Source of the DNA: an uncultured Verrucomicrobiota bacterium
GTDB taxonomy: Bacteria > Verrucomicrobiota > Verrucomicrobiae > Verrucomicrobiales > DEV007
Assembly (NCBI GenBank): GCA_902591645.1
Contig: CACJBM010000003.1
Coordinates: forward strand, 1-64,000
Reading direction: 5' to 3'
Length of the DNA: 64,000 bases
In this document: one piece after another, positions 14,292-29,769 of the stretch
How positions within the stretch are numbered: position 1 is the first letter of the stretch
Layout: each line of letters starts with the position of its first letter
Notes under the pieces: model-generated
Database searches by the model: none
Told to the model about the DNA's origin: nothing
Seen by the model: only the letters and a program-made list of their open reading frames with translations
Made by a program: the position numbers and the translations under genes

Positions 14292-14330
14292 CTAATTTGG
14301 ATAACCGCTAATTGGCTAATCCTAAATTAG
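14292..14330. terminator. Possible bidirectional hairpin between convergent genes
   Basis: CTAATTTGGAT (14292-14302) pairs with ATCCTAAATTAG (14319-14330) with one bulged A, around a 16-nt loop. It lies where the di-haem oxidoreductase gene and the pyruvate dehydrogenase operon converge and overlaps the pdhC stop codon. No strong U-tract follows on either strand, so termination is only suggested by position. Confidence 0.35.
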
Positions 14331-15569
14331 CATGCTAGCCGGATTTTCGATGCGCCTTTTTAGCTCCGCGAGATACTTTGCACCTATCGCGCCATCAACC
14401 ACCCTATGATCGCAACTCATCCCGACTTTCATCCGCAGACCAGCTACAAGGTTCCCTTCGTCATCAACGACCGGCATGCTTTTGATGCTGCCAATAGAAA
14501 GGATCGCGGCTTGAGGAGGATTAATAATAGCATCAAAGCTATCAATTCCATAAGCTCCTAAGGTAGAAACAGTTATGGTTCCTCCGGAAAATTCATCAGG
14601 GGAAAGTTTTTTGGCACGTGCCCTCTGAGCCAAATCTTTTACTGCCAAACTAATTTCGAGGAGACTCTTTTGTTGAGCATCAGGTATTACGGGCGTGACT
14701 AATCCATCTTCCACCGCAATCGCCACAGAAAGATTAACGGATCCATACTGGATAATGGAGTCCCCATCAAAGGAAGAATTAACTTCAGGCACAGAGGCCG
14801 CAGCATTTGCGACCGCTTTGAGAATGAAATCATTTACTGTGAACTTATTGTCTCCTTCTTCTGCGGCAGAATTTGCTTGTTTCCTAAGGTTCATTAGGGG
14901 CGCGGCATCAAACTCAACGTTGAGATAAAAATGGGGAATCTGAGTTTTAGATTCGAGTAATCGTTGGGCAATAATATTGCGCATTCCTGTAAGAGGAATC
15001 CTTTGGTCTTCACTTGTTAAGGGTTGTGATCTTTGAGGGGTCGATACGGTCGGTGAACCTGCTGAGGCTTTATGATTGTCTAAATCCTTTTTTACAATCC
15101 TACCGCCCGGCCCCGTACCTTTCACTTCAGATAGATTAATGCCTTTAGAGTTGGCTATTTTTTTTGCCAAGGGAGAGGCTTTGATTCTTTCATCACTTGC
15201 CGCGGGCGCAGGGTTATTTTCAGGAGTTTTGCTGGTGGCTTCCTGATTTTGTACTTCTTTGTCTTCTTCTGGTTTTTCAGGCTCAGGACCTGATGCCGCG
15301 AGAGCAGCTGACTTATCAGGAACCTCTTCACCTTCTTGTACAATTACAGCTAAAACTTCACCGAGTGGAGCTGTGGTTCCTTCCTCTGCATAAATAGCTC
15401 CAATTATGCCTTCATCAAAAGCAACCATTTCCATCGTAGCTTTATCGGTCTCGATTTCGGCTATGGGATCCGATACATCGACTTTATCACCGACCTTAAC
15501 GAGCCACTTCACAACAGTACCTTCGGTCATTGTATCACTCAGTTGAGGCATTTGAACAAAATCGGGCAT
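14322..15569 (-). CDS. pdhC: Pyruvate dehydrogenase E2, dihydrolipoamide acetyltransferase
   Basis: 415 residues. One N-terminal lipoyl domain (about 1-77) with the lipoylated lysine in EIETDKATMEM (K43), a Glu/Pro/Ala-rich linker, a peripheral subunit-binding domain (about 128-165; ASPLAKKIA, GTGPGGRIVKKDL), and a catalytic acyltransferase domain whose conserved DHRVVDGAIGAKYL lies near the C terminus. Transfers the acetyl group from lipoyl to CoA as the core of the pyruvate dehydrogenase complex. Third gene of the E1 alpha-E1 beta-E2 operon; the E3 gene is not in the window. The single lipoyl domain is at the short end for bacterial E2. Confidence 0.95.
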   Translation of the reverse strand: MPDFVQMPQLSDTMTEGTVVKWLVKVGDKVDVSDPIAEIETDKATMEMVAFDEGIIGAIYAEEGTTAPLGEVLAVIVQEGEEVPDKSAALAASGPEPEKPEEDKEVQNQEATSKTPENNPAPAASDERIKASPLAKKIANSKGINLSEVKGTGPGGRIVKKDLDNHKASAGSPTVSTPQRSQPLTSEDQRIPLTGMRNIIAQRLLESKTQIPHFYLNVEFDAAPLMNLRKQANSAAEEGDNKFTVNDFILKAVANAAASVPEVNSSFDGDSIIQYGSVNLSVAIAVEDGLVTPVIPDAQQKSLLEISLAVKDLAQRARAKKLSPDEFSGGTITVSTLGAYGIDSFDAIINPPQAAILSIGSIKSMPVVDDEGNLVAGLRMKVGMSCDHRVVDGAIGAKYLAELKRRIENPASMLI

Positions 15570-15598
15570 CTTATTGTCGTTTAGTATTTTCTGTAGTT

Positions 15599-16582
15599 TT
15601 AGCCGAGCTTCTGAACCATATCAACGACTCGGCTAACATTTGGGATTTGTTCTTTCTCAAGAGGTGGGCTGTAAATTGCTGGAGCATCAATTGAGGTCAC
15701 TCTTAAAACGGGAGCATCTAAACTATCAAATGCCTTTTCCTGAATGGTTGCTGCAATTTGTGAACTGACGCCACAGAACGGTTTGTTTTCGTCAATCAAT
15801 ACGGCCCGGTTAGTTTTTTCCACAGACTTTAATATTGTTTCTTCGTCGAGGGGTCTAATTGAACGCAAATCGACTACCTCTGCATTAATGCCTTTCTCCT
15901 CACCTAATTGTTTTGCTGCCTCAAGAGCAACAATAACTGAACGACCATGAGCAATTAAGCTAACATCTGTTCCCTGTTTCTTAACTTCTGCGGAGCCAAT
16001 TGGTACCGTGAACTCTTCGTCTGACAAATCCGAAGCAGCGGCAGGGTCTCCATAAAGTATTGTGTTTTCCATCACATAGACCGGATCATTGTCCCGGATC
16101 GCCGATTTCATTAGACCATACGCATCATGGGCTGTTGCCGGAGCAACAACTTTAAGGCCTGGCACGTTAGCAAATAAATTTTCAGGTGTATGGGAATGTG
16201 TTGCGCCAACACTCGTGCCGCCATTCGCAGGCCCTCTGACAACTATTGGACAATTTATTGAACCGCCGGACATGTATCGAACGCACGCGGCGTTGTTAAT
16301 CATTTGGTCCAAAGCAACGTATGCAAAACTAAAAAACATTAGTTCCATCACGGGTCGAACTCCGAGCATTGAAGCTCCTATTCCCATTCCTATAAATCCA
16401 GCTTCTGATATGGGTGTATCAACTACTCTCTTATCCCCCCATTTTTTCCATAATCCCTCAGTGACTTTATAAGCACCGTTATATTCTGCCACTTCTTCAC
16501 CAATAATGACGACCTTATCGTCATTGGCTAGCTCTTCATCGAGTGCCCTGTTAAGTGCTTGGCGGTATAATGTTAAAGCCAT
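15599..16582 (-). CDS. pdhB: Pyruvate dehydrogenase E1 component, beta subunit
   Basis: 327 residues. Transketolase-like pyrimidine-binding domain (IIGEEVAEYNGAYKVTEGL; the E of GEEV contacts the ThDP aminopyrimidine) followed by a transketolase C-terminal domain (LIAHGRSVIVALEAA, VVDLRSIRPLDEETI). Full length for the alpha2-beta2 type E1. Together with pdhA it decarboxylates pyruvate and acetylates the E2 lipoyl arm. It starts 45 bp after pdhA and ends 29 bp before pdhC in one leftward operon. A branched-chain or acetoin E1 is the main alternative, but the set of three genes and the alpha subunit sequence fit pyruvate. Confidence 0.94.
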   Translation of the reverse strand: MALTLYRQALNRALDEELANDDKVVIIGEEVAEYNGAYKVTEGLWKKWGDKRVVDTPISEAGFIGMGIGASMLGVRPVMELMFFSFAYVALDQMINNAACVRYMSGGSINCPIVVRGPANGGTSVGATHSHTPENLFANVPGLKVVAPATAHDAYGLMKSAIRDNDPVYVMENTILYGDPAAASDLSDEEFTVPIGSAEVKKQGTDVSLIAHGRSVIVALEAAKQLGEEKGINAEVVDLRSIRPLDEETILKSVEKTNRAVLIDENKPFCGVSSQIAATIQEKAFDSLDAPVLRVTSIDAPAIYSPPLEKEQIPNVSRVVDMVQKLG

Positions 16583-16627
16583 ATTATTCGTTTCTTTAAG
16601 CTAATTTGTTATCCAGCAAAAGGGGTT

Positions 16628-17701
16628 TTAGTCATGAAAAAAATGTTTTCCCTGTTTTCCTGATTCTGTTTGATTATCGACCTCGTAATAAACATCATCC
16701 GTGATTTCTGAAAGATCAGGAAAATCACTTTCTTCAGCAAAGGTCACTGAATCCTTAGCTTCGCTCTTGGCCGCATTATCTAATTCTTTATAGCCGCTCT
16801 CATCAATGACGCTCTCCTCAAAAAGGCGTTTTTTCCAAACGCTAATCGGGTCATAATTTTCTTTGTAATAATCTATCTCCTCTGGGGATCGGTATTTTTT
16901 AGCATTAGCATCTGCTACTGAATGTCCCTGGTAACGGTAAGTATCAAATTCTAATATCGTGGGTTGTGACTCGTTGTGAGCTCTGTCCATCGCTTCTTTG
17001 GTTTTGGCCCTCACTTCATAGATGTCATTACCTTTAGCAACATCCCACTCTATTCCATATGCATCTCCTCTCTGCGCTAAACAATTATTAAATGCTGAGG
17101 AACGTTTTTGGCTAGTTCCCATTGAATATCCATTATTTTCTATAATGTAAATTACTGGTAATTCCCACAACTGAGCTAAGTTAAGAGATTCATGAAAAGA
17201 TCCTTGATTAACGGCTCCATCTCCTAAGAAACATAGAGCGGCCCCTTTCTCTTCATTATATTTCAGCCCGTATGCTAATCCCAACCCGAGTGGAGTCTGC
17301 CCAGCTACAATGCCATGTCCGCCCCAATAATTTTTATCAGGAGCAAAAAAGTGCATCGATCCTCCCTTTCCCTTTGAGCAACCTGTTTTTTTTCCATAGA
17401 GCTCAGCCATACACTCATTCATAGACATTCCAACAGCTAGTGCGTGGCCGTGATCGCGATAGGCCGTGATCATGTGATCATTGTCACCACATAAAGATGC
17501 CGTGCCAACTGCGATTGATTCCTGACCAATGTACAGATGCAAAAATCCACCCATTTTACCTGCATTATAGTACTTTAAGGATGCTTCTTCAAAGCGCCTG
17601 ATACGTACCATTTGGCGTAAAAATTCTATCTTCTCTGTATCAGAAAGTGACTTATTCACTTCTTGTTCGCTATATTTATGGGACTCAATTTGTTCTAGCA
17701 T
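16628..17701 (-). CDS. pdhA: Pyruvate dehydrogenase E1 component, alpha subunit
   Basis: 357 residues from the ATG at 17701; a TTG at 17710 would add three residues. The ThDP-binding motif starts at GDGAVNQGSFHESLNLA and ends in IIENNGYSMGTS. YRDHGHALAVG and KGKGGSMHFF are typical of E1 alpha, and YRYQGHSVADANAKKYRS resembles the phosphorylation-loop region of pyruvate-specific enzymes. First enzyme of the pyruvate dehydrogenase complex in the cytoplasm. It begins about 15 bp after the upstream membrane-protein gene, so that gene may be part of the same transcript. Confidence 0.95.
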   Translation of the reverse strand: MLEQIESHKYSEQEVNKSLSDTEKIEFLRQMVRIRRFEEASLKYYNAGKMGGFLHLYIGQESIAVGTASLCGDNDHMITAYRDHGHALAVGMSMNECMAELYGKKTGCSKGKGGSMHFFAPDKNYWGGHGIVAGQTPLGLGLAYGLKYNEEKGAALCFLGDGAVNQGSFHESLNLAQLWELPVIYIIENNGYSMGTSQKRSSAFNNCLAQRGDAYGIEWDVAKGNDIYEVRAKTKEAMDRAHNESQPTILEFDTYRYQGHSVADANAKKYRSPEEIDYYKENYDPISVWKKRLFEESVIDESGYKELDNAAKSEAKDSVTFAEESDFPDLSEITDDVYYEVDNQTESGKQGKHFFHD

Positions 17702-17715
17702 AGTTTGCAAAGAAT

Positions 17716-18303
17716 CTAGGTGGTTTGAGAAAGGTGCGGCGCTTTCATTAATGTGTCAGATTTGGGGCTTAAGGCAAAGTAAAAGACGAATGCAAATATT
17801 GAATTGCTAACCAATGTCCGGATGCCAAATAGCCAAGCGGGGGGATATCCTGGGACGCCCGTTGTGTTTGCTTGAAACCACCCTGCTATATTTTTGGTAT
17901 AGTGTGGATCCATGAAAAAGGATACTGAATTCAAAAGAAGATAAAACAGTAAGCTCGATGCGATGGTGCAGCCTAACAGAACATTAATTCTTCTATGTTT
18001 TCTTAGTAGATATCCACAAGTGAAAATGACAGCAAATAAAACTAAAAGAAAAAGTGAATAGTAATTTATGATTGGCTGCTCATATTTAAGATTGAGTATT
18101 ATGTCACTTGTGATGAAGGTTCCAAAGGTGAGCATAAAGGCGATCCTCGTTGGGAACATCATTCCTCCACAGAGAGCCAGTGCTGCTAGTGGTGAAATGT
18201 TAGCAAATGCTTCTGCTGTTGGTTGGCCGAGATAGGCGGGCACTACTCGAACCACAACAAACATGACTAGAACCAAAAAGATTAATGAAATGCGCTTGAA
18301 CAT
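17716..18303 (-). CDS. Multi-pass membrane protein, DUF6580-like
   Basis: 195 residues with about five hydrophobic helices. ISPLAALALCGGMMFP near residue 36 and the C-terminal PGYPPAWLFGIRTLVSNSIF match the pattern of the DUF6580 putative transporter family (membrane proteins of unknown substrate, sometimes compared with ECF-transporter S components). It is the first gene of the leftward run ending in pdhC, only about 15 bp ahead of pdhA. Co-transcription with pyruvate dehydrogenase would fit uptake of a cofactor or precursor such as thiamine, but this is guesswork. Confidence 0.65.
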   Translation of the reverse strand: MFKRISLIFLVLVMFVVVRVVPAYLGQPTAEAFANISPLAALALCGGMMFPTRIAFMLTFGTFITSDIILNLKYEQPIINYYSLFLLVLFAVIFTCGYLLRKHRRINVLLGCTIASSLLFYLLLNSVSFFMDPHYTKNIAGWFQANTTGVPGYPPAWLFGIRTLVSNSIFAFVFYFALSPKSDTLMKAPHLSQTT

Positions 18304-18571: not shown

Positions 18572-18646
18572 ATGGCTGAAAAGGCGTTGCTTTCGAACAT
18601 CTTCGAATCAAAATTTAAACCATTCACTAATATTGATTTTGAGTAA
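18572..18646 (+). CDS. Possible 24-residue leader ORF overlapping the mnmG start
   Basis: ATG at 18572 is preceded by AGGTG at 18563-18567 (4-nt spacing), one of the better ribosome-binding sites in the window. It encodes MAEKALLSNIFESKFKPFTN plus four residues (IDFE) and stops at 18644-18646, overlapping the mnmG start in another frame. mnmG itself starts with TTG and has no ribosome-binding site of its own, so translational coupling from this leader is a reasonable idea. No homology is claimed. Confidence 0.35.
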   Translation: MAEKALLSNIFESKFKPFTNIDFE

Positions 18647-20528
18647 TTACATCCATCCCAAAAAATATCACGTTCTTGTTATTGGAGCAGGTCACGCTGG
18701 AGTCGAAGCAGCAATGGCCGCAGCTCGGATGGGTTGCCAGGTTGCAGTCATTACTCAGAATCTCGATACCATTGGGCAGATGTCATGTAACCCTGCTATT
18801 GGAGGATTGGGTAAGGGGCATATAGTTAGAGAAATTGATGCGCTTGGTGGATTAATGGGGCTGAACACTGATGCGACCGGTATTCAATTTAGAATGTTAA
18901 ATGCATCTAAGGGGCCAAGTGTACGAGCCCCGAGAGCTCAATGTGATAAGAAAGCTTACCAGTTTAGAATAAAGTTTGAATTGGAGTGTCAAAATGGTTT
19001 GGATTTGCACCAGGGTAATGTAGCAAACCTCTTGATTAAAAATGATGAGGTTTACGGAATCCGTACTAATCTGGGCGTCGAATATCATACCGAATCGATT
19101 ATCATTAGCTCTGGAACCTTTATGCGGGGTTTGATGCATGTTGGTAAAGAAAATCAAGCTGGTGGTAGGATGGGTGATGGTATTTCGACGATTTCAGATT
19201 CTTTGAAGGATTTGGGTATCGAAATCGAACGGTTCAAAACGGGGACCCCTTGCCGTTTAAATGGTAGATCTATTAATACTAATCTTTGTGAGAGGCAAGA
19301 TGGCGATGAGCCCCCACCCAAATTTAGTTTCCTTGCGGACACAATTGTTAAAAATAACAAACCTTCATCAGGTTTAGATACTTTTACCCTAAATAATTGG
19401 TCTGATCCAATGTTCCACGTGGAACAACTGCCTTGTTGGATAACATATACAAATGGATCCACACATGATGTAATTCGATCCAATTTGGATCAATCTCCGA
19501 TGCATAGTGGTGTTATTGAGGGAGTTGGTCCAAGATATTGTCCATCGATAGAAGATAAGGTAGTAAGATTTGCAGACCGCGAGCGCCATCAGGTCTTTTT
19601 GGAGCCAGAGGGGCGCCAAACAAATGAATATTACGTCAATGGTGTATCCACGTCTTTGCCTTATTCAATACAATATGAATTTATACGATCCATTAAAGGA
19701 TTAGAGAATGCAGAAATTATACGTCCTGGGTATGCTGTAGAGTATGATTTCTGTCCACCGACACAACTTCAGCCAACACTAGAAACAAAGATTATCGGAG
19801 GCCTTTATTTTGCGGGTCAAATTAATGGAACCTCTGGTTATGAAGAAGCAGCAGCACAAGGTCTGGTTGCTGGTGCTAACGCGGCTCTTAAAAGCCAGAG
19901 CAAAGAGCCTCTAATATTACCAAGGTCAAAATCATATATTGGTGTAATGATTGATGATTTGGTAACCCGTGGTGTAACTGAGCCTTATAGAATGTTCACT
20001 AGCCGGGCAGAGTATAGACTTTTATTAAGACAGGATAATGCCGACCTTAGATTAACTGAGTGGTCCTCGGACTTTGGTTTGGTGGGGGGAGAAAGGCTAA
20101 AAAGAATAAAGAAGAAAAAAGAAGATTATACCGTTGCTTTGGATTTAGCTCATAAGAAGAACCTTGAAGGTTTAAGGATCAATGAGTGGTTTCGCAAGCC
20201 AGGGAATGGGTTAAGTAAATTGCCTGAAGATATACAATCATTGTTTAGTGAAGAAATTTGGCGATTGGTTGAGATAGAGTGCAAAAATGCTGGGTACATT
20301 GCACGACAAGAACAAATGATCGCTAGAACAGAAAACATGGAGAGTGTCTCTATACCTGATGAGCTCGATTATAATTTGATTAGTGGTTTGAAAAAAGAAG
20401 CTTCTGTTCGTCTCAATAAAATTAAACCTAAAACGTTAGGACAGGCCTCTCGTGTTAGTGGAATAACTCCGGCTGATATAGCGGTGTTGACTATTTGGAT
20501 AAGCAAAAACAGAAGTGTAACTCGTTGA
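18633..20528 (+). CDS. mnmG: tRNA uridine-5-carboxymethylaminomethyl modification enzyme MnmG (GidA)
   Basis: 631 residues. N-terminal FAD-binding Rossmann motif VIGAGHAGVEAAMAAARMG, then CNPAIGGLGKGHIVREIDALGG, LPCWITYTNGSTHDVIRSNL, GPRYCPSIEDKVVRFADR and GYEEAAAQGLVAGANAAL, all standard MnmG blocks, with the C-terminal helical MnmE/tRNA-binding domain. With MnmE it modifies the wobble uridine of several tRNAs, using FAD and methylene-THF. No ATG precedes the Rossmann motif; start is TTG at 18633 or TTG at 18639 (the latter gives MSNYIHPKKYHV). Residues 260-265 (MFHVEQ) are encoded by a parS site. It is convergent with the selenoprotein candidate, 7 bp between stops. Confidence 0.97.
   Translation: MILSNYIHPKKYHVLVIGAGHAGVEAAMAAARMGCQVAVITQNLDTIGQMSCNPAIGGLGKGHIVREIDALGGLMGLNTDATGIQFRMLNASKGPSVRAPRAQCDKKAYQFRIKFELECQNGLDLHQGNVANLLIKNDEVYGIRTNLGVEYHTESIIISSGTFMRGLMHVGKENQAGGRMGDGISTISDSLKDLGIEIERFKTGTPCRLNGRSINTNLCERQDGDEPPPKFSFLADTIVKNNKPSSGLDTFTLNNWSDPMFHVEQLPCWITYTNGSTHDVIRSNLDQSPMHSGVIEGVGPRYCPSIEDKVVRFADRERHQVFLEPEGRQTNEYYVNGVSTSLPYSIQYEFIRSIKGLENAEIIRPGYAVEYDFCPPTQLQPTLETKIIGGLYFAGQINGTSGYEEAAAQGLVAGANAALKSQSKEPLILPRSKSYIGVMIDDLVTRGVTEPYRMFTSRAEYRLLLRQDNADLRLTEWSSDFGLVGGERLKRIKKKKEDYTVALDLAHKKNLEGLRINEWFRKPGNGLSKLPEDIQSLFSEEIWRLVEIECKNAGYIARQEQMIARTENMESVSIPDELDYNLISGLKKEASVRLNKIKPKTLGQASRVSGITPADIAVLTIWISKNRSVTR
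19411..19426. other. parS centromere site 2, inside mnmG
   Basis: A second exact TGTTCCACGTGGAACA, lying within mnmG codons 260-265 (MFHVEQ) just before the conserved LPCWITYTN block. A perfect 16-bp match twice within 900 bp is not expected by chance, so this is read as a genuine ParB site embedded in coding sequence, as known for parS in other bacteria. Confidence 0.9.
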
Positions 20529-20535
20529 TATTAAG

Positions 20536-21306
20536 TCATTTACGGTTTTTTATAACTTGGTTTATTTGCGAAATTAGCTCCGTTGAGGCTATTCTAACTC
20601 TATTATTTTCTGTGAATCTAAACCAGAATATCTCCGCTTTTTTATCGACTAACATTTTACCAATTCGTGCAGTGTCTTCACCCGTAAGCGGGTTTCCTCC
20701 CTCATCTAATAATCCAAGACTATCAATGAATAATCCGCTAGGATCTGAAACAAAAGAAAAGAATCCTTTGGTTTTATTTTTTGTTCTTTGAGAATCTTGA
20801 GCAGTCCCTTTGCAGATTGCTATGACCTTTATTCCCATTAGGTTAAGTTCTTCTATTTTGTTTTCTAGCTTCACGAGCTCAGCAACACAGTATGGTCACC
20901 AGTGACCCCTGTAAAAAATAAGTAGTGTTTGATCTGCTTGATTAAGTTGAGACCCTATATCAAATGGACGCCCCTGATTGTCCTGCAGTTGTTCTTTGTC
21001 AGACCAATTAATTTTCTGACCCAATTTGTAGCTTTTATCTAAAGCGGGATAATGAGTGAAATCTTCAACCCACCAAACAAGTAAAAGAGCCATGCACCAA
21101 GCTATCAGATTTAGCAAAAAGAGAGTTTTTCTATTTTTGCTAGCTTTGATTAATAGCCTGGCAAGAACAATCAATGAAGCAAGAATAACAACAGCTGCCC
21201 ACACGGGTCGCTGCTCATAAATTTCAAACTGAGTAGCAAAAAGAAAATGGAGCAACCCAACTAATGGAATGAGAAATAAAGCAACGAGTCCTCTAGCTAT
21301 TATCAT
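20536..21306 (-). CDS. Probable selenoprotein: membrane-anchored peroxiredoxin-like protein with in-frame UGA (Sec137)
   Basis: Read through a TGA codon at 20896-20898, the frame gives 256 residues. Residues 1-80 contain three hydrophobic helices (about 1-23, 33-53, 61-80). A redoxin domain follows (about 105-256), with beta strand QTLLIFYRGHW, then U137-P138-Y139-C140 and VAELVKLENKIEEL, and later GIKVIAICKG and FVSDPSGLFIDSLGL. AhpC/TSA-type redoxins normally read FYRGxWCPYC here, so the UGA replaces exactly the catalytic cysteine. Reading frame, fold and conservation continue uninterrupted after the UGA. Other genes in the window end in TGA (mnmG, the M20 peptidase, the DUF3500 gene), so the code is standard and recoding would be local. 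A hairpin at 20867-20879 fits a bacterial SECIS. Likely a periplasm-facing thiol or peroxide reductase. Alternatives are a sequencing error (Cys TGC/TGT to TGA) or a recent nonsense mutation. Confidence 0.75.
20867..20879 (-). promoter_or_regulatory. SECIS-like hairpin downstream of the UGA
   Basis: In the mRNA, AGCU-CGUGA-AGCU forms a 4-bp stem with a 5-nt apical loop whose second base is G. The loop starts 21 nt after the UGA. Outer bases UGUU and AACA can add a lower stem across an internal loop. Published criteria for bacterial SECIS elements (short upper stem, G in the first two loop bases, loop about 16-37 nt after UGA) are met. The element is weak, so this is supportive rather than decisive. 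Confidence 0.5.
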
Positions 21307-22604: not shown

Positions 22605-25600
22605 TCAGGGCGAAAGAACACGCACACGCAAAAACCCTAAATCCTTATCATTTATAGCATCCCTAGAGCGCAAAAGGATTCGTTCAGCACCAGCACCATC
22701 CGCCACTCTAGAAATTTCAATTGTGTTGTTTTTGTCCTGTGACCACGCGATTAAATCATTACTCATTTCAATGATAAACTCGATACCTGGCGCATCTTTT
22801 CTTTCCCGATATTCAAGGGCAAAGTACTGTCTTCCTTCTAGTTCGACTATATCCAATGAAGGAATTCCGCTTTGAGGGTTTTCACCAATAAGATCCATTC
22901 CAAAAGCATACGTAAGAAGATTATTGAGTAAATCGCCTCCCTTAACGTCTAATGGATTGGTTTCTCCCCTGGCTTCCATCCAAGATGCAAACGCTTCGTT
23001 GATTGTTTCAGCCTTTCCGGGTGATCCTCCAATTGCAGAACTTGATGTCCACAAAGAGCCATCACTTGTATTTCCCAGCAATGGATTGGATAATACAAGA
23101 GAATAACCATCTTCGTCAGGCTGAGTTGGCCAGGGGCCGTTGTTGTCATAGATAAAGCTCGTGACAAGATTTCCATCCCTATCCAAAAGTACAATTTCCT
23201 CGCCATTATTATTTAACTTACCACCAGACCAACTGCCTACTATTTGGGCATTAATCTGCTGACCATATTTACTTAAAAAAGATTCACGATCAGCCACAAT
23301 TAGAAGATATTCACCAGCACCTATCGATCTTTCAGGAAAGATAAATTCATTCACGGGTTGACCTTGGGGGAGTGAAAAACCAGTCAGATCGACAGAATTT
23401 CCTCCCGCATTATAAAGTTCAATAAATTCATAATCAGAACCCTCTAATGGATTATACATTACTTCTGAAACAACTATGTCTCCACTAGAAGGTGAAGATT
23501 CATCAGGAGAAATGAGCATCATATAGTCAAAACTCACCTTCAATCCACGGGCGGCTTCTGAGCTTGTAAATATTCCACCATGCACTGATTCCCAATTCGT
23601 CTGAAGGTCGAGGCGATGAATAATTTCCCAAACTCCAGATTCGGGAGATCTTTCGAAAAAGAGACGATCCTCTTCGCGGCGTATTCTTATAACAACATCA
23701 TCAGATGAAGAAAATGGAACGCTATGTACTGTTCCAGCGCTCCCAGAAGAGGTAATTTTGGTGACGGCTAAATGCCTTCCGTCTTTATAACCGAAAGCAT
23801 AACGAGATCGCTTGGCAGATTCATCAACTTCGATTATTAAGCCCGCCATAAATTCATCAAATTGGAGATTCCATAGTTCAAGATCAGTTTGTAATACCCA
23901 ATTGGAATGAGTGGGTAGATCACGTTTAAGCCAGGGGTGCGTGGTTCCATCGAGATTACCACCTTCCGTGACCGGTTGAGCTGTGATATCAAGCTCGGCA
24001 GCAAAGAGATAGTCAGAGCTTCTAGAATTACGGTTATGAAGATCCACGGCGAGTACATTTGTCCCATTTACTAATGATCCGGTACCATCGTAAATACCCA
24101 CTTGCCGTGATTGTTTTTCATCTCTAGAAGCAGTATTACTGCTTGCTCCGGTTCCATGCTCGATCTGACCATTAGGCAACCGGACACGATCAATTTCAAT
24201 GCCGTTGAGCCAAAATCTAGCTCCATCATCTATGACAGCGCGGAGATCAATTTCTGAACCGACCGGATCATCAGAGAATTCAAATTCTGTTCTAAAGTAA
24301 TAACTTACTAGGTTCTCTGCCGAATTGTTTTGCAGTGGAGTATTGATCCCTGGCTCTGGTATCGTGCCGGAATCTTTACCAAACATACCCTTTCCTGTTT
24401 TCCAAGAGGAATCATCAAAGCCTACTTTAGCAAATTCGGACATATAATCGATGTTTTCATCACTATATTGCCAGGCATGATCTAACTGGATATAACTTTT
24501 TGAATCAGCAATGCCCGGAGGCAGCCCTAACGGATAGGACTTATCATCCGGCAATTGAATAACTAATTTCCCTAGTGCTTCACTGAGGGACCACCAGGCC
24601 CCGGGAGAGTAATTGTCTTTTTGTTCTATGTCATGTTCTTGGATCCATGGGGCAATCCAAACATCATTAAATGCTGAAAACCCCTTAGGCCCAAATACAG
24701 ATATTTGCCTTGAGATTGTGGATTTTTTATCTTTCTGATCTGTTACGTCTAAAGATATTTCATATAGTCCAGGAGTCGCAAAACTGACAACGGCAGTCGG
24801 GCCATCTGATGTTAAAACGACATTCTCTGACGAAGCGCTCCATACAAATGAAAGGGCATCACCTTCTGGGTCGTAACTTTCACTGGCATCAAGGACCAAC
24901 GTGCTGGCCAGCTCGACGTTTGCAGAACCAGGATTCAAATCAAGGACTATGTGCGGAGCTGCATTATTTGTTTTGTTTACCGTGACAGTATCTGTTTCTT
25001 CTCCAAACGCAGCCTTACCATCATCATCCAATGCGATGACACGGAAAGAGTTTGATCCGCTTCTTAAGGAAATTCCTTCAATTTTCCATGTTGTTTCATC
25101 GATCCAGCTGAATTGACCCTCGGGGTGGTTTTCTACGGCAACTTCCCAGACCCGATATCCAGCTTCTCCGGTAATTGTGATATTATCATTAGATGTATTG
25201 GCAATTGGGTCGACATCAAGTTTTCTGGTATGACCATTTGAAAGTTCACTCAAAATACGATTGCGCCTGCCGCTGTCCCAACCCGTATATTTATTCTGGT
25301 TTGGATTGTAGGTGGTGGAAACTGCCTGTTCACAGTCGAACCAGGCATCCACACGTGGTCCTTTGGCCTGAAATTTATCCAATATTTCTGTTAAATAGTA
25401 TCGAAAAATACGCCTGTTATAAGGCTTACGAAGCCAAGCTGAGAATTCATTTCCTCCACTAAAGATCATTTCTCCAGTGTTTTGAAAAGCCAAGTCAGAG
25501 TCATGGAAGAAGAAATGAAATTTTCCATCTCCTGGGCCCCTGTAAAAGAAACTGTTCTTGGGGCGTCTTAATGTGAAAGAATCCCAGTCCCCGATGTAAC

Positions 25601-28600
25601 CTCTCACGGCAGCCATCATGCATATTCTTCTCGCGTCAACGAGACGATTTATTTCCTCTTCAGTGTACCCGTTAGAATTCTTTACGGTTTTTAATAGATT
25701 GATTAAAGCTGTATAATCATAATCTGTTTCCCTCGAACGCTTCAGCCACTGACTGTGATATCTTCCTGGACCCGGCCAGTCATCACCAGCGTACCACCAG
25801 TACCGACTGGTTATTTGGTCTTTGCTGTAATTATCATCGAAGAAAAATATATCATCTTGTCGGTAAAGCTCTCCTTGCGGACCATCATCCCCAAAGTTTC
25901 TTTCCAGAAAATCATTACCGACTGGTTCAAAAAATTCTACTGAGTGTCTAGGATTTCCTCCGTTCTCAATCATTGAAGCAAATTCGTTTTCGTTCACTTC
26001 ATGGCCCATAAGATAAAGCATGTATCTAGGAACTTTGTTATTAAATATATTAGCAGCACCCTCTGCTGCCGGGGTATTGTCCCAAGCAATTTTTGCCAGG
26101 CCGCGGAGACGTTTGTCTAAAGGCATTTTAAATTTACCTCGTTGTGTGAAATTTGATCTGCTTCCAGCATGCCAAGGGCTTCCGGAAGATCGGACCTCAC
26201 AATTATAAAATATTTCTTTTTCATCAACGATGAGGGTCATCTTTTTATAATTGTTAGAAAGGTTTGGAAATTTCCATTCCCATGCTGCGCTGCTTCCGCT
26301 CGTCATTGAACGGCGATCATAATCTGAAATCACGACCCGATAACTTGTTACATCAGTCTTAATTTCAGAATTATCGACAACGTACATTGCTGGTATTTCA
26401 GGAGCACGGGAAGGAAGAGTGACTTCTTGTGCGCCATTTTTTGCAAGGACATAGAATTGCACGATCCTATTATCTACTCCCTGATCTAAAATTTGGGCTG
26501 ACCATATTCCATCACCGGCACGAGAGTCTGCACCGGCACCGTTGTCATTCATAGTAAGAGATTTCCAGTCCCTGTCATTGGTTGCTGAGTCCTGACGATA
26601 CATAAGTTTGACTGAATCTGCGGCTCCGGACACCTTAGCAGATACAGTGACAGGCTCCTTACTAGTGGGGACTGCTGGATTGTGTGATAAATAGCCTAAG
26701 GCGGGCGGCGCTGAAGAAAGTAATGATCCATTTGGTTTACCAGGACTGCCAAGATCATTAGGAATAGGTAACCTATAAGTAGAAACAAAACTGTCTTCAA
26801 ATGTTTTGAAAATGACCCTGGGCTTTCCTTTAACCCAACGGGCCTTGAACTTAAGAGTCAGCTCATCATTGCGCGTTAATTCATTGACCTGAATTTCAGC
26901 TTTGTTTGCTCGATTGTCACCGTGCCCATCAGAAATCAGGTGAAATTCACCATTTTCAAAATAGCTGGCATGATGCGTTCCCTGTGGCAACCATCCAGTT
27001 TCACCTCGACCGTTCGTAGTACGCTTAGCAGCGTTTTGCATGATATCCTGACCCCCCCTGAGAAGCTCTATATCTTTCAGAATGACATGTGCGTCTCCGA
27101 CAAGATGGACCCACAATTCTTTATCAAGACGCGGAACTGAAAGGTGGTGATAGATGCTCGTGAAGCTGTATTCCTCAAAACTTGTTTTCTGACTCTCATC
27201 ACTATCTTTCCAAGAGCTAGGAAGATCATTATCAGCAAAGGGATGAATGAGTTCCATACTACTTCCATCGCCATTTGTCCATTGTGGCCAATCTCCACCA
27301 ACTTTGTAGTTCACTTCATCAGCCAAATTTCCGTTACTGTCCTCGAGCCTCAGAAGTTCACCTTCATTAGCCAAGTTGTTTTCATAGTTTCCTATTACCG
27401 GAACATCGCCATAATTTGATTTGATCCAATCTTTGTTAGCAGCAACTACCAAATGAGCCCCAGCCCCAATGCTTGTGCCGGCCGGGAAAGTAAAACTAAT
27501 TCCCTCAACAAATTCCCAGCCACTAAGATCAACGGCCTCATTGCCCCTATTATACAGCTCTATAAATTCACCGTTCCTTTCATCACTTGGAGGATCGGAC
27601 ATTATTTCGTTGATGATGATGCTCGTTTCCCTGACCGGCTCGTTAGCTGCATTTTTCGTATGACCAGGGCCCCGGAACCATTCCTTTCCAGGCGGATCAC
27701 TTTGATAGCTTTCTACACCATCGCGAACACGGAAAGAGTCTGCTGCTAGCACAGTGCCCCCTGAGGTGATTAGATAGACCCGAATTTCATTTGTGTTTTC
27801 AGATGAAAAATTGACATCCCAGCTCTTTGGAGAATTGCCCGAAACAGAACCCGACAAAGGGACAGCATCTGAAAAATCAATTTTGGAAGTTAAAGACAAG
27901 CCTTCAACCGGAATAGCAGCATCACTATCAGCAGAAAGTTCAATCCAATCCACATTTCCCTCTGCATCAAAGTGGACCTCGTTGAGATCAAGCAAGCCCG
28001 CAAGATCACTACTGTCTATATTAGCGGCACCTGGGGTCGGATCAGTAAAAACAAACCAGTCAGATCCACCGGCTGGTTTTCTTCCAACAGAACGGCCATC
28101 AGCTCCGAGCGTAGCCTCGAACGCATCAAGTGTTGTAACGGCACCAGGAGAACTTAGATAAATTTTTGTTTTACCACCCACAGTGAATCCTGCCTCTTTA
28201 AAGCCAATGGTCGTGAAACCTGAGGCGGAAATAGTGGCATTAGCTCCTATAGTAAACTTTTTAAGATCATTGATATCATTACTAAGATGATATCCCTGCA
28301 AATTGATTTCTTTGTCAGAGGAATTATAAAATTCGATAAATCCATTACCAGCATCGCCGACCTTTACTTCATTAATAATGGCAGCACCCCCAGCACCTGA
28401 AACCCGAATGATTGGACCAAAGACAAGGTCCGAGCTGTTACGGCTATTATTATGAACCTCTACAGCTAGTGTATTAGTGCCATTTATCAGCATACCACTT
28501 ATGTCAGATTCAATGATTCCTTGTTCGATCTTTGCCTCAAGTGATGAAGGCACTGAAGATGCATTGGTCTGATAGTTAATTTCTCCAGCCGGCATGCGAT

Positions 28601-29531
28601 GGCGCCCGACTTCTTTCCCGTTCAAATAAATAACCAGTCCGTCATCAAGAATCGCATCCATTGAAAAGAAAGCAGAGGTTGTTCCGCCGGCCCATTCGAA
28701 TTGTTTTCTCATATAATGAGTTGAAATGCGCTCTTTCCATTCGGTTTGAATCTTGGGTTCAGGCATCGCTGCTATCCGTGAAGCAGTTTCTCGACCAAAG
28801 ATACCACCACCACTGGACCATGATGAATCGTCATATCCTGACTCCTTCCATCCGCTACCAAGATCATTGCCAGAATCATCATATTTCCATTCATCTCCAA
28901 GACTGACGATCGGAAAAGACGCTGCAAGATCCACTGATGGATTTGAAAAACGTTGCCCGTCCGAGCCTGCAGGGGCCACTCCTGGTGTGCCCCCCGGAGA
29001 TGCACTCGCAGCCCAATTATCAAATTTTGAGCAACTAAGATACTTGTTGATTAAACGCAATGAATGACCAGCACCATCAGCAGCGACAGGCCACGTTCCC
29101 CGATCATTGTATCTGACACGGCAAACCATGACGCCATTTTTATCTCTCAGCTCTAGGGCTTCTCCTGCATTACTCAAAGAACCAGTGTAAGGACCAAATA
29201 TTTTAACATCCCCAGGCACAGTATAATTTGCGCGGAATGTTTTCTCATCAACATTGGTGACTAATACGCGCTCAAAAGCGCACATAAATGTTTGTTGAGG
29301 AGATGATGCGGAGAAGTCAGGAAATTTATAATCGATACCATCCGAAAATTCCCAGCACGCAAAATCAACAGCGGAACCGGAATTATTAAATAGCTCTATA
29401 TATTCAGGCTTATCATCTTTTGGAGAGTAATGAATCTCACTAAAAGTGACGCGTTCAGCGACTGAAGTAACCGCTAAAATTAAAGTAACGAGTAAAGTAA
29501 CACCAAAATTGGTGAGCAAAGAAAAATGCAT
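22605..29531 (-). CDS. Giant secreted protein with lamin-tail (LTD), CotH-like and PKD domains
   Basis: About 2,308 residues from the ATG at 29531, which starts a clean signal peptide; an in-frame ATG at 29612 would add 27 residues. Order: LTD repeat (FSEIHYSP, EYIELFNNSG), jelly-roll segment (WKESGYDDSSWSSGGG), LTD (IINEVKVGDAGNGFIEF), LTD (near residue 650, GEFIELYNRGNEAVDLSGWE), CotH-like region (about 1000-1400; YIGDWDSFTLRRPKNSFFYR, FFFHDSDLAF), PKD/Ig-like domain (about 1530; DASESYDPEGDALSFVWSA), second jelly-roll (VGFDDSSWKTGKG), and a final LTD (near 2017). The C-terminal tail (LLNNLLTYAFGMD, then FALEYRERKDAPGIEFIIEM) resembles tails common on Verrucomicrobiota surface proteins. Probably cell-surface or extracellular; the CotH region suggests a protein-kinase-like enzyme. 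It is transcribed alone, ahead of tRNA-His. Confidence 0.85.
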   Translation of the reverse strand: MHFSLLTNFGVTLLVTLILAVTSVAERVTFSEIHYSPKDDKPEYIELFNNSGSAVDFACWEFSDGIDYKFPDFSASSPQQTFMCAFERVLVTNVDEKTFRANYTVPGDVKIFGPYTGSLSNAGEALELRDKNGVMVCRVRYNDRGTWPVAADGAGHSLRLINKYLSCSKFDNWAASASPGGTPGVAPAGSDGQRFSNPSVDLAASFPIVSLGDEWKYDDSGNDLGSGWKESGYDDSSWSSGGGIFGRETASRIAAMPEPKIQTEWKERISTHYMRKQFEWAGGTTSAFFSMDAILDDGLVIYLNGKEVGRHRMPAGEINYQTNASSVPSSLEAKIEQGIIESDISGMLINGTNTLAVEVHNNSRNSSDLVFGPIIRVSGAGGAAIINEVKVGDAGNGFIEFYNSSDKEINLQGYHLSNDINDLKKFTIGANATISASGFTTIGFKEAGFTVGGKTKIYLSSPGAVTTLDAFEATLGADGRSVGRKPAGGSDWFVFTDPTPGAANIDSSDLAGLLDLNEVHFDAEGNVDWIELSADSDAAIPVEGLSLTSKIDFSDAVPLSGSVSGNSPKSWDVNFSSENTNEIRVYLITSGGTVLAADSFRVRDGVESYQSDPPGKEWFRGPGHTKNAANEPVRETSIIINEIMSDPPSDERNGEFIELYNRGNEAVDLSGWEFVEGISFTFPAGTSIGAGAHLVVAANKDWIKSNYGDVPVIGNYENNLANEGELLRLEDSNGNLADEVNYKVGGDWPQWTNGDGSSMELIHPFADNDLPSSWKDSDESQKTSFEEYSFTSIYHHLSVPRLDKELWVHLVGDAHVILKDIELLRGGQDIMQNAAKRTTNGRGETGWLPQGTHHASYFENGEFHLISDGHGDNRANKAEIQVNELTRNDELTLKFKARWVKGKPRVIFKTFEDSFVSTYRLPIPNDLGSPGKPNGSLLSSAPPALGYLSHNPAVPTSKEPVTVSAKVSGAADSVKLMYRQDSATNDRDWKSLTMNDNGAGADSRAGDGIWSAQILDQGVDNRIVQFYVLAKNGAQEVTLPSRAPEIPAMYVVDNSEIKTDVTSYRVVISDYDRRSMTSGSSAAWEWKFPNLSNNYKKMTLIVDEKEIFYNCEVRSSGSPWHAGSRSNFTQRGKFKMPLDKRLRGLAKIAWDNTPAAEGAANIFNNKVPRYMLYLMGHEVNENEFASMIENGGNPRHSVEFFEPVGNDFLERNFGDDGPQGELYRQDDIFFFDDNYSKDQITSRYWWYAGDDWPGPGRYHSQWLKRSRETDYDYTALINLLKTVKNSNGYTEEEINRLVDARRICMMAAVRGYIGDWDSFTLRRPKNSFFYRGPGDGKFHFFFHDSDLAFQNTGEMIFSGGNEFSAWLRKPYNRRIFRYYLTEILDKFQAKGPRVDAWFDCEQAVSTTYNPNQNKYTGWDSGRRNRILSELSNGHTRKLDVDPIANTSNDNITITGEAGYRVWEVAVENHPEGQFSWIDETTWKIEGISLRSGSNSFRVIALDDDGKAAFGEETDTVTVNKTNNAAPHIVLDLNPGSANVELASTLVLDASESYDPEGDALSFVWSASSENVVLTSDGPTAVVSFATPGLYEISLDVTDQKDKKSTISRQISVFGPKGFSAFNDVWIAPWIQEHDIEQKDNYSPGAWWSLSEALGKLVIQLPDDKSYPLGLPPGIADSKSYIQLDHAWQYSDENIDYMSEFAKVGFDDSSWKTGKGMFGKDSGTIPEPGINTPLQNNSAENLVSYYFRTEFEFSDDPVGSEIDLRAVIDDGARFWLNGIEIDRVRLPNGQIEHGTGASSNTASRDEKQSRQVGIYDGTGSLVNGTNVLAVDLHNRNSRSSDYLFAAELDITAQPVTEGGNLDGTTHPWLKRDLPTHSNWVLQTDLELWNLQFDEFMAGLIIEVDESAKRSRYAFGYKDGRHLAVTKITSSGSAGTVHSVPFSSSDDVVIRIRREEDRLFFERSPESGVWEIIHRLDLQTNWESVHGGIFTSSEAARGLKVSFDYMMLISPDESSPSSGDIVVSEVMYNPLEGSDYEFIELYNAGGNSVDLTGFSLPQGQPVNEFIFPERSIGAGEYLLIVADRESFLSKYGQQINAQIVGSWSGGKLNNNGEEIVLLDRDGNLVTSFIYDNNGPWPTQPDEDGYSLVLSNPLLGNTSDGSLWTSSSAIGGSPGKAETINEAFASWMEARGETNPLDVKGGDLLNNLLTYAFGMDLIGENPQSGIPSLDIVELEGRQYFALEYRERKDAPGIEFIIEMSNDLIAWSQDKNNTIEISRVADGAGAERILLRSRDAINDKDLGFLRVRVLSP

Positions 29532-29769
29532 GGAAAATGGGGGGTATATTTTTGAGAGGAGGTATTGATGAGAAAATACCAGTAAAACAGGGTAAATACA
29601 AGCAATAGCCACAAGTTCGTGCTTATCGGGGCTGATAATCTATGAGTATGGCGGAGATCAGTAAAAATGAAGTTACGAATGACATCAAAGCAGCGCCCTA
29701 AAACAAATATTCAATTCCTTGCATGCATTGCCATTAAGTAACATTCTTTGGGCGATGTCAGGAGAATCA

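Follow-up and report, generated by a model that had tools for sequence, protein, structure and literature searches.

A probable membrane-anchored, peroxiredoxin-like selenoprotein encoded by a TGA-interrupted gene in Verrucomicrobiota

Does the single TGA within an otherwise open minus-strand frame of the window (the whole stretch of 64,000 nucleotides analysed here) end a protein, or does it encode selenocysteine (Sec)? The frame runs from 20536 to 21306 on the minus strand. In total, 136 codons precede the TGA and 119 come after it, and the sequence around codon 137 reads FYRGHW-U137-P-Y-C140. A first-pass annotation, made from the sequence alone, had described one frame split by a single TGA at 20896-20898, a UGA falling within this motif and a frame that continues for 119 residues beyond it. 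The frame reading confirmed the split and the continuation, coordinates and residue numbers were correct, and the TGA occupies the same column in 31 genes. The window gene is very probably a selenoprotein gene, and its features are as follows.

20536..21306, minus strand: probable selenoprotein gene, Sec at 137, 256 residues, terminator included in the span; one frame with a single internal TGA.
20896..20898, minus strand: in-frame TGA, codon 137, read as selenocysteine; same column in 31 genes, Cys in the relative L022.
20887..20898, minus strand: UxxC motif U137-P-Y-C140; U/C137, P138 and C140 invariant in 30 rows, aligned with the CxxC of ResA.
20536..20538, minus strand: TGA terminator of the gene, from the frame reading; relatives terminate in TAA, TAG or TGA.

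For Pfam, NCBIfam and the genome and protein searches, the window protein was read through with Cys at position 137. This query (P0001) includes one extra residue derived from the terminator. P0001 scored 52.5 bits against Pfam AhpC-TSA (PF00578), for which the cut-off is 26. The second half alone, starting from a GTG, scored 22.3 bits, and the first half alone gave no AhpC-TSA listing in the Pfam search. A first protein search with P0001 returned 2 matches and was uninformative. We also scanned the window for TGA-interrupted genes by codon usage, and the selenoprotein gene ranked third of 76. In the same scan, rank 1 fell where two neighbouring frames meet, at 2188-2190, and rank 2 lay antisense to the E2 gene at 15244.

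The AlphaFold2 model of the protein (mean pLDDT 94.1, pTM 0.88) consists of three helices followed by a redoxin domain.

21226..21303, minus strand: predicted membrane helix 1, residues 2-27; AlphaFold2 model and hydropathy scan.
21145..21204, minus strand: predicted membrane helix 2, residues 35-54; AlphaFold2 model and hydropathy scan.
21058..21132, minus strand: predicted membrane helix 3, residues 59-83; AlphaFold2 model and hydropathy scan.
20638..20991, minus strand: AhpC-TSA/redoxin domain, residues 106-223; Pfam PF00578, 52.5 bits; Foldseek match Bcp4 (3hjp), TM-score 0.85 by target length.

The three N-terminal membrane helices of the first-pass annotation are thus also predicted by the model. 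Their position in front of a redoxin domain is unusual, as had been stated, but not unique, and the Cys homolog P0005 is arranged likewise. Among the 31 Sec rows, a simple hydropathy scan revealed three stretches in 19; another 7 rows had four, 4 had two and 1 had five. Helices 2 and 3 are joined by a loop with a mean net charge of +3.57, whose K+R content exceeded that of loop 1-2 in 29 of 30 rows. By the positive-inside rule, which orients membrane proteins from loop charge, the redoxin domain would then probably lie on the periplasmic side.

The best PDB matches found by Foldseek were the peroxiredoxins Bcp, BcpB, AhpC and AhpE. In the profile alignment, U137 coincides with the first Cys of CxxC in ResA. 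Relative to the Bcp motif, U137 takes the place of Ser, C140 that of Cys and R133 that of Pro; the U137 column of the Bcp peroxiredoxin alignment is Ser/Thr. We take the Bcp Cys aligned with C140 to be the peroxidatic Cys. The earlier claim that the UGA falls on the catalytic cysteine therefore holds with respect to a thioredoxin-type CxxC, of which U137 is the first Cys, but not with respect to Bcp, whose peroxidatic Cys aligns with C140. The typical peroxiredoxin motif PxxxT/SxxC is absent, with R133 and U137 standing for Pro and Ser/Thr.

The same selenoprotein might nevertheless act as a true peroxidase, with C140 as the peroxidatic residue and Sec 137 resolving, for example on membrane lipid peroxides. 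The fold and the best PDB profile match, both of the Bcp type, the alignment of C140 with the Bcp peroxidatic Cys and the predicted tethering to the membrane all favor such an activity. However, two invariant columns have R133 and U/C137 where the peroxiredoxin motif calls for Pro and Ser/Thr, and the CxxC spacing is that of ResA, which is also a strong match, so we regard a true peroxidase as rather unlikely. Our best reading is a Sec-containing UxxC thiol:disulfide oxidoreductase with a three-helix membrane anchor and a peroxiredoxin/thioredoxin fold.

Relatives of the gene were collected from genomes. The nearest genome found was the MAG Verrucomicrobiales UWMA-0292 (locus L001, genome G001), reached via the neighbouring gene at 17719-18303, whose protein is 83% identical between the window and UWMA-0292. 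The ortholog of the window protein in UWMA-0292 shows 70% identity and likewise has a TGA at codon 137. Some match was obtained in 136 of 386 genomes of its order, and the 29 best-matching ones hold the members that were checked. Thus at least 29 of the 386 genomes hold the family, 28 with TGA at codon 137; the remaining one, L022, encodes Cys in precisely this column. This number is a lower bound, with weaker TGA matches (G218, G337, G144 and second copies in G099 and G148) outside the count. In a sample of the phylum, 65 of 387 genomes matched at 1e-15 and 30 loci were fetched. Among these, L049 was the G001 gene again, L050 and L051 were two further TGA members, and the loci read from L052 onward were otherwise Cys redoxins. 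The 31 TGA genes are therefore the window gene, 28 of the 29 order family genes, L050 and L051. Rows with two TGA codons contain the Sec codon and a TGA terminator; in the row showing TAG, this codon terminates the Cys gene. L040 proved to be another redoxin and was removed, alignment A3 does not contain L022, and L050 and L051 were used in the codon-shuffle test and the tree and are absent from alignments A2-A4.

In alignment A2 (30 rows) the residues F131, R133, G134, W136, U/C137, P138, C140, L144, G204, G209 and R236 were invariant. A further Cys homolog, P0005 (Verrucomicrobiales bacterium BCK34), came from the profile search of protein collections. Like the window protein, both L022 and P0005 are full-length and have the same helices and motif, but they carry Cys where the window has Sec. 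The first-pass annotation had suggested that homologues be inspected at column 137, and a Sec codon in 28 of 29 genes with Cys in the remaining one agrees with its proposal. The coding sequence is conserved on either side of the in-frame UGA. Between the window and L002, dN/dS was 0.21 before the TGA and 0.29 after it, and values stayed below 0.3 on both sides wherever computable (10 pairs; dS before the TGA saturated in 3 of them). Selection at the protein level therefore also acts downstream of the TGA. Several weaker redoxin matches with one in-frame TGA (G099:C363, G148:C448, G218:C5, G144:C5, G337:C227 and others) are possible extra selenoproteins.

Next to the TGA, we analyzed the following 39 nucleotides, which align without gaps in two sets of genes.

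20867..20879, minus strand: SECIS-like hairpin, nucleotides 17-29 past the TGA, four pairs in the window; pair counts, consensus fold and codon-shuffle test.

The branch of the window (17 Sec genes) has a five-pair stem, formed by nucleotides 16-20 with 26-30, in which 94.1% of 85 cells are paired. The shuffled mean was 90.2, and none of 500 shuffles reached 94.1%. Sliding the stem partner by one to three columns resulted in a pairing of at most 54%. Changes on both sides of the stem were C19-G27 to U19-A27 (3 rows) and G18-C28 to A-U (1 row); two such pairs were equalled by 27 of 500 shuffles, and the number of further pair types by all 500. The other branch (12 genes) has a near-invariant six-pair stem, nucleotides 19-24 with 28-33, with one both-side change. 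Synonymous codon shuffling of the 31 Sec genes gave a mean z of -1.94 at the site and of -0.63 to +0.40 at 12 positions elsewhere in these genes; for draft sequences (L013 and L016 at least), A was substituted for N. In L022, the one Cys gene examined, z was +0.28 and the stem is absent at the site. Individually, 18 of the 31 Sec genes did not reach p 0.05. For the window alone the shuffle gave p 0.062, and a plain single-sequence fold of 61 nucleotides was no better than shuffles (z +0.84). Rfam gave two matches at the hairpin site, both far below the gathering scores. A stem-loop directly 3' of the UGA is thus found in the 31-gene set, and its signal is weak in the window alone.

The Sec machinery, which the first-pass annotation had named as a check, was looked for in G001, a near relative and not the window organism. 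Nothing was encountered there against the proposal: a tRNA-SeC with anticodon TCA was present, selA starts about 1.7 kb downstream of it, SelB scored 324.6 bits (cut-off 242.25), and SelD was present and itself contains a TGA. As a wider comparison, all 29 family genomes contained SelA, compared with 24 of 80 genomes from the rest of the order (Fisher p 3e-12), the latter being controls picked non-randomly from 357 non-family genomes by handle order, partly with another redoxin match. Five controls with weaker TGA-containing redoxin matches (G089, G092, G096, G144 and G155) all had SelA. Control genomes were searched for SelA, and the tRNA-Sec and SelD counts refer to the family genomes. SelD exceeded its cut-off in every one of the 29, and 25 of these SelD genes carry a TGA. 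The SelD match in G024, G040, G128 and G099 lies in a TGA-free open frame of 749-797 aa, which may be the Ndh-SelD fusion described in PMC2398784. With 100 candidates scored per genome, tRNA-Sec was above cut-off in 22 of the 29 draft family genomes and not found in 7. SelB was above cut-off in 4 of 6 genomes tested and below it in 2. The missing tRNA-Sec and SelB may reflect the draft state of the genomes and the 100 scored tRNA candidates. In G074, two tRNA-Sec matches above cut-off lie close together (C73:119883-119977 and 120585-120679).

Taken as a whole, we consider the following explanation highly probable. The gene would encode one 256-residue selenoprotein, in which SelB and tRNA-Sec decode UGA 137 as selenocysteine, guided by the short stem-loop just 3' of it. 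Sequence comparison argues strongly for this decoding. The three predicted N-terminal helices would anchor the protein in the inner membrane, and the C-terminal peroxiredoxin/thioredoxin-fold domain, probably periplasmic, would bear the redox couple U137-P-Y-C140. By analogy to ResA-type CxxC proteins, the Sec selenolate would most likely attack a disulfide or peroxide, C140 would then close a selenenylsulfide, and another thiol system would re-reduce it.

In databases, the family appears in truncated form. Among the best 120 of 236 profile matches in protein collections, 22 proteins end exactly before the UGA. Fourteen of these are 136 aa long, with 57-99% identity, and end in FYRGHW; one is named 'hypothetical protein' by its source. 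The mis-annotation predicted by the first-pass annotation has thus occurred, and databases most likely hold only the first half of the TGA-carrying gene. Since the family is stored as truncated entries, many annotations could be corrected by a Sec-aware family model.

Three further explanations of the TGA were weighed. A selenium-dependent switch, in which a 136-residue stub and the full enzyme are both made and both have a role, would profit from the stub being a complete three-helix membrane protein, as modelled. Nothing in the analysis points to a function for the stub, however, and in L022 and P0005 the complete protein is the sole product, so a switch appears improbable. Even less credible are two separate proteins, a 136-residue membrane protein followed by a restart at a GTG nine codons downstream. 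The open reading frame list of the window does show both halves apart (20896-21306 and 20536-20874), but a restart would drop the invariant P138 and C140, in L022 and P0005 a single protein spans this column with Cys, and the genomes carry Sec machinery. A pseudogene or read error, in which a Cys codon was mutated or misread to TGA, would fit a gene that is intact apart from one in-frame stop, yet it has a negligible chance given the TGA common to 31 genes, the 22 clusters (of the best 120 of 236) stopping right before it and the purifying selection after it. Read error was excluded in practice, as independent genomes and metagenome clusters share the TGA. General recoding of TGA to another residue was likewise rejected; the tRNA-SeC of G001 has anticodon TCA, and TGA also terminates the gene.

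We then return to the single Sec protein and the history of its column. In a tree of 47 rows, the Cys pair L022 and P0005 grouped with the Sec rows L023 and L021 (support 100/99), and this clade sits inside a 19-row clade (99/95) that is otherwise all Sec. Because the Cys pair is nested in an otherwise all-Sec clade, the simplest reading of the sequences is that Cys replaced Sec in the lineage of L022 and P0005. A second Sec branch of 14 rows (93/88) meets the first in an open fork with the Cys rows L052 and P0020-P0022. The tree requires at least three Sec/Cys changes, and with Cys rows in the open fork it does not establish a single Sec origin family-wide. The nested replacement, with the stem gone in L022, provides a natural experiment on Sec versus Cys at a single position.

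Using a crude ORF caller, we compared the gene neighbourhood in the window with that of 20 loci, some of which are truncated by contig ends. The gene mnmG lies directly downstream, in convergent orientation, in 11 of these 21 loci, and RNase III directly upstream in 7. No redox partner was common to the 21 loci, some of them cut by contig ends. Upstream of RNase III, 7 of 21 loci have a long frame of one cluster, represented in the window by a 2335-aa frame (22605-29612, minus strand), which presumably contains repeated lamin-tail-like and CotH-like stretches. Three window frames at 14322-17710 (minus strand) and 18633-20528 (plus strand) keep their order relative to mnmG in near relatives, where they neighbour the selenoprotein gene; we take them to resemble pyruvate dehydrogenase subunits.

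How does the protein compare with known systems? ResA has a single membrane anchor, whereas the window protein has three predicted helices. The CxxC of its thioredoxin-like domain (PDB 3c71, 1st9) aligns with the window UxxC, with Cys in place of Sec, and the C-terminal part is different. Peroxiredoxin selenoproteins of the TxxU type share the fold and the Pfam family PF00578, but have Sec at the peroxidatic position, where the window has Cys, its Sec standing three residues earlier. An example from G001 is a second redoxin gene (L003:844-1380, minus strand) with an in-frame TGA, the motif PKANTGGU and a signal-like N-terminus, which fits the PxxxTxxU form of these enzymes. In NCBIfam, no model reached its cut-off for the three family members searched. 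The SelL-related redox protein NF040769 was the best match by E-value for P0001 and P0004, at 32.9 and 35.5 bits, where its cut-off is 120.

The closest known kind is the Prx-like UxxC selenoprotein of PF00578, a broad class known by 2005 and described in the consulted parts of PMC1088965, PMC2398784 and PMC13188914. The window protein has both its marks, AhpC-TSA above the Pfam cut-off and Sec in UxxC. As far as the excerpts go, PMC1088965 counts 22 Prx-like UxxC selenoproteins among known families, and PMC2398784 gives 225 sequences for Prx-like 1 (pfam00578, UxxC) and lists cases of Prx-like 2 and 3 fused to unknown domains. The excerpts of PMC13188914 and PMC9312934 list a 'Prx-like thiol:disulfide oxidoreductase, PF00578, UxxC', that of PMC9402790 describes a fusion of a Prx-like U/CxxC protein with a DsbC domain, and that of PMC4807772 describes planctomycete selenoproteins with no mention of 'peroxiredoxin'. 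With the published sets ('Prx-like' of PMC1088965, 'Prx-like 1' of PMC2398784), as excerpted, the window protein shares PF00578 and UxxC; these are bacterial and abundant in marine samples. In contrast to the window protein, the sets are described in these excerpts with mention of neither membrane helices nor Verrucomicrobia. Verrucomicrobia are unmentioned in PMC13188914, PMC2398784, PMC9312934, PMC12013277, PMC5029168 and PMC9402790, as is 'membrane' in PMC1088965, PMC2398784 and PMC12013277, and 'transmembrane' in PMC13188914, PMC9312934 and PMC9402790.

The first-pass annotation had called the selenoprotein new. As far as searched, this applies to the gene and its membrane-anchored form, but not to the broad Prx-like UxxC class, which is published. 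In the portions of the selenoprotein lists searched, the membrane-anchored verrucomicrobial form is absent, and fragments of the family may already have been counted among the published Prx-like sets. We offer only tentatively, and with some doubt, that this is a distinct unlisted family, a membrane-tethered extracytoplasmic Sec enzyme hidden by truncated entries, with Sec ancestral at least within the branch of the window and Cys secondary. Its substrates might include periplasmic disulfides or lipid peroxides. In summary, the Prx-like UxxC selenoproteins gain a form anchored in the membrane by three helices, and the analysis suggests that Sec is used across one order of Verrucomicrobiota, a phylum that the literature, in the portions searched, had not linked to such a protein.
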